From positions 1 through 51,982 of the forward strand of contig JABXJW010000005.1 of NCBI GenBank assembly GCA_013375395.1: a stretch of 51,982 nucleotides of DNA, in the 5' to 3' direction. Of the stretch, positions 41,826-43,543 are shown piece after piece. A model generated the notes under the pieces. That model did not search any database and was not told the origin of the DNA. It was given only the letters and a program-made list of their open reading frames with translations. The stretch's first letter is position 1, and every line of letters starts with the position of its first letter. Both the position numbers and the translations under genes were made by a program. Source of the DNA: Desulfobacterales bacterium (GTDB lineage: Bacteria > Desulfobacterota > Desulfobacteria > Desulfobacterales > C00003060).

Positions 41826-41989
41826 TCAGGATTGTTTCTTGGGGTCTTTTTTGTAGTTTTTGAGGAAGGTTTCAATGGCGTCTTCCAAAATGTCATTTAC
41901 ATTGACCTCTGTTTCGGCGGCAAGAATCTTTAGTCTCTTGATCAGGTCTGCCTTAAGGGTTGTATTGAACTTCTTCCGTTTTTTTTCAT
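41826..41989 (-). pseudogene. Ribbon-helix-helix protein, frame broken at an A8 run
   Basis: Reading the minus strand, a 51-codon frame ending at TGA (41826-41828) encodes KKFNTTLKADLIKRLKILAA, then ETEVNVNDILEDAIETFLKN, a clear ribbon-helix-helix DNA-binding pattern of the antitoxin type. The only good start, ATG at 41987-41989, lies eight A residues upstream and is out of frame by one base; nine A's would join them (MKKKRKKFNTT). No other start precedes the frame. It may be a slippage-controlled gene, a pseudogene or a sequence error. It is convergent with the ABC ATPase gene and lies beside a short inserted element. Confidence 0.6.
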
Positions 41990-41995
41990 GGTTTC

Positions 41996-42174
41996 AGATA
42001 CCAGATGGTCAGTCTAAAGTTCGCATAATTACCTGAAATTATTAGCAGCTAATTCCCCCTTTCCTAAAGGGGGGTTAGGGGGGATTTTTGCGCAACTTCC
42101 TGAAATCCCCATTTAAAAAAGGGGGACTTAACGGCATGTTTCCGAGAACTTTGGACTCTCAAGATACCAGATGG
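41996..42174. repeat. Short element between 13-bp direct repeats
   Basis: AGATACCAGATGG occurs at 41996-42008 and 42162-42174. The 153 bases between them start with CAGTCTAAAGTTC and end with GAACTTTGGACTC, an imperfect inverted pair (AGTCYAAAGTTC). The interior includes a CCCCCTTT/AAAGGGGG hairpin followed by TTAGGGGGGATTTT, a motif also seen at 47567-47600. It looks like a non-coding inserted element with a duplicated target. Confidence 0.6.
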
Positions 42175-42242: not shown

Positions 42243-42271
42243 TTGACATCTCCATCATATGCGTATATAAA
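42243..42271 (+). promoter_or_regulatory. Near-consensus sigma-70 promoter
   Basis: TTGACA (42243-42248), a 17-base spacer and TATAAA (42266-42271) make an almost perfect housekeeping promoter. Transcription should begin near 42278 and run through the structured RNA to the terminator ending near 42441. It is the best promoter match I found in the window. Confidence 0.75.
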
Positions 42272-42277
42272 GAAAAG

Positions 42278-42441
42278 AAGAAATAAAATTTAGTTCCACT
42301 CAATTGAAGAAAAAACAACATTTTCGTAGATCCCTGGCAGCCGCAAGGTCCAGGGCGCCCGTGTTGAGGCGGGAAGGTTTCAGGTCTATCTTTTAGCCAC
42401 TGTTTCGGTCTATTAGCCCGTTGCGGTGGCTTTTTTCGTTT
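42278..42441 (+). ncRNA. Candidate structured small RNA or leader RNA
   Basis: Between a near-consensus promoter and an intrinsic terminator, the RNA can form a three-way junction. Stem P1 pairs TAGAT (42327-42331) with GTCTA (42384-42388). P2 is CCCTGG/CCAGGG (42332-42337 and 42350-42355). P3 is CGCC/GGCG (42356-42359 and 42368-42371). A terminator hairpin follows. The transcript would be about 160 bases. It could be a stand-alone sRNA or a cis-regulatory leader, since a small gene starts 63 bases after the terminator. I do not recognise an Rfam family; the cobalamin-like words present are in the wrong order. The fold is by eye. Confidence 0.5.
42394..42441 (+). terminator. Intrinsic terminator
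   Basis: AGCCAC (42395-42400) pairs with GTGGCT (42426-42431), followed at once by a TTTTTTCGTTTTT run. The loop is long (about 25 bases) and can form a smaller inner stem. It lies at the 3' end of the candidate RNA and before the small gene at 42504. Confidence 0.7.
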
Positions 42442-42503
42442 TTACCCCCCAAGGCCGTCCTCGGTACGGGGATAAAGCCTGAAATTAGGAAGGTGGGGAC
42501 AGT

Positions 42504-42731
42504 ATGGGTGAACATAATGGTCTGTATGACAGGCTCGACCAGGCTTCAGCCAAACTCATCATGCTGAGGGATTCATGTGATCGCATAGCTGCACATAACG
42601 ACCTTTATCCACGCTTTGCCTGGTATGAAGGCACGGCGGCCATTTGTCAGGACGTTATTGGCTTGATGGAAGAGATTTTGCTTAATGCTTCTGTTGCAAT
42701 CACTGAAAAGAAAGCCCTCAAGCCGAAATAG
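42504..42731 (+). CDS. Small protein of unknown function
   Basis: The 75-residue protein starts with ATG 42504 behind AAGGTGGGG, a good ribosome site. It is soluble, mildly acidic and probably helical (DRLDQASAKLIMLRDSC, CQDVIGLMEEILLNA). No family was recognised. It follows the candidate structured RNA and its terminator, so expression may depend on read-through or on its own weak promoter. It precedes a toxin-antitoxin operon by about 140 bases. Confidence 0.6.
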   Translation: MGEHNGLYDRLDQASAKLIMLRDSCDRIAAHNDLYPRFAWYEGTAAICQDVIGLMEEILLNASVAITEKKALKPK

Positions 42732-42807: not shown

Positions 42808-42852
42808 TTGACAATCTGTACAGAATATGGCATTTTAATGTATCTTTGTACA
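42808..42852 (+). promoter_or_regulatory. Candidate promoter and operator of the toxin-antitoxin operon
   Basis: TTGACA (42808-42813) is followed by two TGTACA palindromes (42817-42822 and 42847-42852), 30 bases apart, about three helical turns, ending 17 bases before the antitoxin ATG. No -10 hexamer at ideal spacing is clear. The pair of half-palindromic boxes is a plausible autoregulatory site for the antitoxin; this is inferred from position only. Confidence 0.4.
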
Positions 42853-42869
42853 ATTCAGGGGGTGTTGCC

Positions 42870-43121
42870 ATGGAAAACCCGGTATCAAAAATGAAAGTCA
42901 GTGAGGCTCGATCCAAGCTGACCCGGTTGGACAAGCTGTTAAGGCCTGGTGAAGCCTTGCAAATCAACAAGAGAGGCAAGGCATATGCCCGCATTGAGTT
43001 GATAGGAGAAACGGATCGCTACGACAAAGTCTTAGACTCTATTGATGACCTGCTGGAACCAAAAGGAAGATTGCGGGCAGTAGCTGAGAAGTACAAGTCT
43101 ATCTTGTACGGGAAGAAATAA
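42870..43121 (+). CDS. Phd/YefM-like antitoxin
   Basis: With ATG 42870, behind a CAGGGGG ribosome site, the protein has 83 residues; an in-frame ATG eight codons upstream is less likely. MKVSEARSKLTRLDKLLRPG and EALQINKRGKAYARIEL match the Phd/YefM DNA-binding fold. The C-terminus (KGRLRAVAEKYKSILYGKK) would wrap the toxin. The stop codon shares one base with the toxin's ATG (TAATG), as expected of a coupled pair. It should repress its own operon and neutralise the PIN toxin. Confidence 0.82.
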   Translation: MENPVSKMKVSEARSKLTRLDKLLRPGEALQINKRGKAYARIELIGETDRYDKVLDSIDDLLEPKGRLRAVAEKYKSILYGKK

Positions 43122-43543
43122 TGCAAACGCTAAAAGGCTTCAACGCAGTCTACTGCGATGCCAGTTTCTTTATCGCCCTGTTTTCAAAGAAGGACACAAA
43201 ACACAAGCGCGCCTTAGAACTTTTCAAACAGGTCAAGGAAAACCGAATCACAATCCATACATGTTGGTTCACTATCTCCGAGGCCATGACTGTTCTTCTC
43301 TATCAATATGGTTACACTGAGGCGCTGACTTTCAATCAATCGATTGATCTTTATAGACTTTTTCATTCCACGGAAAGCCAACACCATCAGGCCATTGCCT
43401 TATTCAATTTTTTTGGCAAAGACAGAAAGATTTCTTTTGTGGATGCCCTCTCGCGTGTCCTTATTCCCGGGGAACTCAAGAACATGCCATCCCTGTCTTT
43501 TGATCAAGATTTCAAGGCGCTAGGCTTAACGACTATCTCCTGA
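43121..43543 (+). CDS. PIN-domain toxin (VapC-like ribonuclease)
   Basis: The 140-residue protein has the PIN acidic residues D13 (VYCDASFFIALF), E54 (TISEAMTVLL), D108 (ISFVDALS) and D128/D130 (SFDQDFKALGL), all in order. PIN toxins are magnesium-dependent ribonucleases. Its start overlaps the antitoxin stop by one base. The active site looks complete, so this is one of two apparently intact toxin-antitoxin modules here. Confidence 0.9.
   Translation: MQTLKGFNAVYCDASFFIALFSKKDTKHKRALELFKQVKENRITIHTCWFTISEAMTVLLYQYGYTEALTFNQSIDLYRLFHSTESQHHQAIALFNFFGKDRKISFVDALSRVLIPGELKNMPSLSFDQDFKALGLTTIS

Follow-up and report, generated by a model that had tools for sequence, protein, structure and literature searches.

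In phages P1 and P7, an a1 site lies upstream of C4. To our knowledge, C4-type RNAs are known in detail from these two phages only. The C4 antisense RNA (RF01695; its a1/b1 targets are RF03163) is a small three-way junction (3WJ) RNA from a phage-operon leader, and RNase P processes its 5′ end. Its loops are complementary to translation start regions (PMC8198154), and in P1 it acts through pairing of the a′ and b′ loops with such regions (PMC5320573). The c4-2 RNA (RF02944, clan CL00128), also of phage setting, is a 3WJ without J1/2 in which P2 sits directly on P1 and carries a 5′ bulge of two bases and a GNRA loop (GGYA..CCGCAAGG). In translation-coupled attenuators such as the trp and his leader peptides, a short leader frame overlaps alternative structures and a terminator.

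Here we describe an RNA locus that resembles each of these systems and differs from each. It lies in contig JABXJW010000005.1 of a Desulfobacterales bacterium, analysed over 51,982 nucleotides (the window). With somewhat better than even confidence, and from sequence comparison, we read the locus as a diverged, probably decaying prophage regulatory unit, consisting of a gene for an RHH repressor, a promoter divergent from it and a leader RNA whose reading frame overlaps a 3WJ and a terminator, and which would work in a C4-like way.

The RNA element in the window

The first-pass annotation had described a near-perfect promoter leading into a possible three-way junction and an intrinsic terminator with a T-rich tail, with a transcript of about 160 nt that matched no known family. 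These points all hold (Table 1). The promoter is sigma-70-like, and an automated scan requiring a final T passed over it for that reason only. The 3WJ forms in the fold of 42320-42441 (-44.0 kcal/mol), and the transcript length agrees with the predicted promoter-to-terminator extent. P2 (CCUGGCA-GCC-GCAA-GGU-CCAGG) has the bulge and loop described above for c4-2 RNA, and there is likewise no J1/2. After P1 come CUUUU and then a distinct terminator hairpin, so the window lacks the U-run that directly follows P1 in c4-2-type RNAs. By itself the window sequence is weak structural evidence, because the short P1 (7 bp) is absent from the MFE structure of the longer fold (42278-42441) and that fold has a z-score of only -2.0, with 10 of 200 shuffles equally good.

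Table 1. Features of the RNA locus, in window coordinates
Feature	Position	Strand	Details
Small RHH gene (RHH_3 / CopG-like)	41826-41989	-	Divergent from the RNA; RHH_3 Pfam E=6e-7
MITE-like mobile repeat with inverted ends	42006-42163	.	Separates RHH gene from RNA promoter; 13-bp direct repeats on both sides
Promoter TTGACA-N17-TATAAA	42243-42271	+	TTGACA 42243-42248, TATAAA 42266-42271; 11/12 consensus matches; 61 nt from -35 to start codon, like locus L031 of genome G018
a1-like site CCACTCAATTG	42296-42306	+	Overlaps TTG start; CTCAAT + CC can pair with P3 loop; located where relatives have their strong a1 sites
Putative leader frame	42304-42396	+	TTG start, 30 aa, TAG 42394-42396; crosses 3WJ, ends at terminator base
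3WJ (from fold)	42326-42389	+	P1 42326-42332/42383-42389, P2 42333-42354, P3 42358-42373, J3/1 42374-42382
J3/1-P1′ segment	42376-42391	+	Pairing possible with 42470-42486, which immediately precedes the SD-like AGGAAGGTGG at the 42504 gene
Intrinsic terminator	42395-42437	+	Stem 42395-42431, U-run 42432-42437; fold -19.0 kcal/mol
Small gene, 75 aa	42504-42731	+	Relative of the G006 prophage gene downstream of the RNA; E=7.7e-6 (search of 291 genomes)

An Rfam scan of the whole window gave no family at the gathering threshold, an Rfam search with a 321-nt piece gave only meaningless matches at E<=10, and the Rfam riboswitch classes did not match the window RNA. In blastn searches against 60 relatives, phages and plasmids, the RNA recovered nothing beyond the window itself and short chance matches.

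A recurrent RHH-linked layout in the order

A covariance model built from the window sequence alone found a single intergenic match in a genome of the same genus, G001 (CP070769.1, Desulfobacterales bin233; 29.6 bits), and also matches in CP070692.1. Matches to loci L007 and L008 were rejected, as they lie inside coding genes. The G001 RNA lies beside a small divergent RHH gene, as the window RNA does; in the window a mobile repeat stands between the two. In two prophages of genome G006 the RHH gene and a divergent 3WJ RNA with its terminator come first, and a ParB-like gene, a gene related to the one at 42504 and an integrase follow in that order. As in the window, the terminator is separate in the G001 RNA and in the G006 prophages.

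The same arrangement recurs in the order, in Desulfobacterales-type MAGs: a small RHH gene, a divergent promoter, a start codon 21-31 nt before P1, the 3WJ, a U-run or terminator, and prophage genes, often an integrase. In a scan of the 500-nt flanks of 30 RHH genes, 10 of the 30 loci (the window counted) had a divergent-strand 3WJ with a U-run or terminator after it; on the control strands weaker or coding-sequence matches occur. Rfam does not recognise these RHH-linked RNAs. A covariance model from six of these loci matches 41 of 261 genomes of the order at E<=0.01, or about one in six. Many of its matches have a divergent RHH gene, a downstream integrase and an ATG about 21 nt before P1; among those examined, roughly half have the divergent RHH gene and about ten a same-strand integrase downstream.

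The compensatory stem changes that the first-pass annotation had named as possible support are strong in these relatives. Across the 31 aligned sense copies, 95.6% of the cells are paired and 28 of the 29 base pairs show double changes, against a shuffle mean of 14.7 and 10-15 for slides, in an alignment that was fitted to the model and is thus biased toward structure. The RNA pattern was sought in viral contigs and none was found there, and a literature search for RHH gene, integrase, antisense RNA and three-way junction together returned no paper in the collection searched.

Some of the same elements also carry int-alpA RNA (RF02996), which has another structure and is absent from the window. 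It occurs in elements with the 3WJ RNA (in L087, L142-L144 and L149; for instance at L087 6065-6134, L142 522-588, L144 1049-1118 and L149 1477-1544), and in L022 (1770-1839) it replaces the 3WJ RNA between the RHH gene and the integrase.

The P3 loop and the leader frame

In the relatives, the P3 loop is complementary to bases at the ATG that lies 21-31 nt before P1, as in the loop/start pairs CCATACGC/GCGTATGG (L010), CCACAGACG/CGTCTGTGG (L031) and TTCACAGTAAAA/TTTTACTGTGAA (L020). Pairing of each loop with its own upstream 75 nt scores -13.8, against -9.1 for swapped pairs (0 of 200000 permutations, p<1e-5), and this complementarity was replicated in 20 previously unused loci (-12.1 against -8.6; 0 of 100000). 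The frame that begins at this start is open through the 3WJ in 11 of 11 loci, against 2 of 22 other frames (p=4e-7), although the loci are related and the counts are therefore not fully independent.

In the window, the frame from the TTG at 42304 is the sole frame open through the 3WJ, and its stop codon overlaps the base of the terminator stem. The TTG lies 22 nt before P1 and has no clear SD; the distances from -35 to start and from start to P1 are 61 and 22 nt, compared with 61 and 23 nt in L031. The window P3 loop matches the start region weakly (-8.5 kcal/mol, p about 0.09 by itself).

These comparisons bear on the earlier suggestion of a stand-alone sRNA or a riboswitch-like leader. An RNA element is indeed present, but reading it as a lone orphan is incomplete, since its relatives point to a prophage regulatory RNA through their divergent RHH gene, start-complementary loop, junction-overlapping leader frame and downstream prophage genes. 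Nothing supports a ligand-binding riboswitch. A ligand-sensing leader controlling the 42504 gene would fit an aptamer-like junction followed by a terminator and then by a gene with an SD-like site, yet the genes downstream differ among relatives (integrase, ParB-like, small genes), and the P3 loops change in step with the start-codon site, unlike a conserved ligand pocket. We consider this explanation highly improbable.

Relation to c4-2 RNA

A search with the P2 motif added CP070692.1 (L087), in which a 3WJ RNA precedes an integrase beside a tRNA. Within the order it also returned a group of perfect 3WJs assigned by Rfam to c4-2. Most P2-motif matches in genome and viral contigs were in coding sequence and were reused as controls. 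A covariance model from 11 c4-2-type loci, excluding the window, G001 and L087, gives these held-out sequences 30.2, 26.3 and 30.8 bits, respectively, a test that is partly circular because the P2 motif used to find several members was taken from the window and G001. This model aligns the window 3WJ in register and scores the next best site in the window at only 10.2 bits; among 47 control loci carrying the P2 motif, chance coding matches score up to 28.5 bits, and most loci score about 15.

The Rfam c4-2 model gives a 79-nt piece of the window 12.3 bits, short of the curated cut-off of 41 and still the best of all 4227 Rfam families for that piece, and it gives L087 29.5 bits. Conversely, the model of the RHH-linked loci also picks up c4-2 loci (34.8, 27.6 and 27.3 bits). 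The window RNA could be a true C4 or c4-2 antisense RNA, that is, a processed or terminated 3WJ RNA acting in trans on another mRNA, either an antirepressor-type target or the 42504 gene at its RBS; the leader frame would then be incidental. The c4-2 rank of the 79-nt piece, the 30.2 bits of the window, the 29.5 bits of L087 and the c4-2 matches of the RHH-linked model speak for this; against it, the window falls far under the c4-2 gathering score. The J3/1-P1′ segment can also pair with the leader of the 42504 gene (-15.3 kcal/mol), but with p only about 0.05 this pairing is suggestive only. Moreover, the open frame at 11 loci would need some other cause. The window RNA also differs from c4-2 RNA in its separate terminator after a short P1, and c4-2 loops tested against upstream or downstream sequence gave no support for complementarity, in contrast to the P3 loops of the RHH-linked relatives. 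Compared with C4 RNA, it has no Rfam match, a divergent RHH gene in place of the P1 layout, a terminator of its own and a leader frame through the junction. We judge an orthodox C4 or c4-2 RNA unlikely here.

Two other settings of such junctions were seen. In L122 (1105-1289 and 1488-1558), L124 and L125, c4-2-type 3WJs adjoin cobalamin riboswitches with no obvious phage, and they have perhaps been co-opted, for example as terminators. In the viral contig L093 (IMGVR_UViG_3300031539_000241), a c4-2-like RNA (826-902) directly follows a tRNA-like end, and a CI-type repressor gene lies just downstream of it.

A diverged copy in a probable prophage remnant

The window RHH protein is 57-60% identical to RHH proteins of genomes G014 and G092 and 56% to that of a G006 prophage (G006:C139). 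The gene downstream of the RNA, already recognised in the first-pass annotation, encodes a protein with 36% identity to its G006 prophage relative (pairwise E=6e-10). Because both resemble G006 prophage counterparts in the same order and orientation, the window RNA appears to stand in a phage or prophage setting. Among the genes adjoining the RNA, an integrase was sought and not found. The toxin-antitoxin operon said to follow the RNA is present at 42846-43543, as a small antitoxin-like gene and then a PIN-domain toxin-like gene (PIN Pfam match), an ordinary pair that does not belong to the conserved layout and is outside the RNA unit.

The RHH gene diverges from the RNA within about 350 nt, a distance that includes the 158-nt mobile insert. 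This MITE-like repeat is bracketed by the 13-bp direct repeat AGATACCAGATGG (41996-42008 and 42162-42174) and has inverted ends; this genome contains four further near-full-length copies (90-92%), and several occur in G011. At the start of the RHH gene (41979-41989, - strand), an A8 tract separates the ATG (41987-41989) from an RHH frame in a different register, so that the gene is probably a pseudogene or dependent on slippage. A pseudogene, a sequencing error or transcriptional slippage could each account for this break.

The out-of-frame RHH start, the mobile insert and the missing integrase, together with the TTG start and weak P3/start pairing, are what a relic without a present role would show: a decayed prophage with a broken RHH frame, a mobile repeat between this gene and the RNA, and at most a stray transcript. 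A nearly perfect promoter and the retained junction, single open frame and terminator argue against this, and we regard it as distinctly unlikely.

We return to the reading of a diverged regulatory unit. The model of the RHH-linked loci matches neither the window RNA (searched at E<=5) nor the G001 RNA; for this reason, and given the TTG start, the weak P3/start pairing and the low Rfam c4-2 score, we label the window RNA a diverged relative, probably in a prophage remnant, and not a proven family member. The copy retains the RHH gene, the promoter spacing, the 3WJ, the single open frame, the terminator and a prophage-type downstream gene, and most likely it works, or once worked, like its relatives.

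A proposed model for translation-coupled control

In the relatives, the parts and their conserved order, the compensatory changes, the loop/start complementarity and the open frame are all seen in the sequence comparisons. We infer from them the following model. In a lysogen, the RHH protein would repress the divergent promoter, and transcripts that do initiate would end at the terminator. The released junction RNA could pair through its P3 loop with the leader start region, on new transcripts or on itself, in a C4-like antisense action. Such pairing would block leader translation, the junction and terminator would stay formed, and the genes behind would be silenced. A ribosome passing along the leader frame would instead open the junction or cover the 5′ arm of the terminator, and transcription would continue. 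Start-codon blocking, lost leader translation and termination would together explain the complementarity and why frame, junction and terminator overlap. The leader differs from those of the trp and his attenuators in having no run of codons for a single amino acid, and blocking of the start codon by the RNA's own loop is proposed rather than ribosome stalling.

Implications

We tentatively propose, at somewhat less than even confidence, that these RNAs form an uncatalogued family of phage control RNAs, each with a 3WJ that holds an antisense loop for the start codon of a leader frame crossing it. One short RNA would then serve as leader message, as antisense repressor and as conditional terminator, alongside a divergent RHH repressor, and the window would hold a diverged member. 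This RHH-linked family is missing from Rfam 15. It would link antisense loop, leader frame and terminator, would serve as a marker for such elements, and would extend RNA-based control of lysogeny to the prophages of sulfate reducers, in many of which this RNA element probably acts as an on/off switch for the phage genes behind it.
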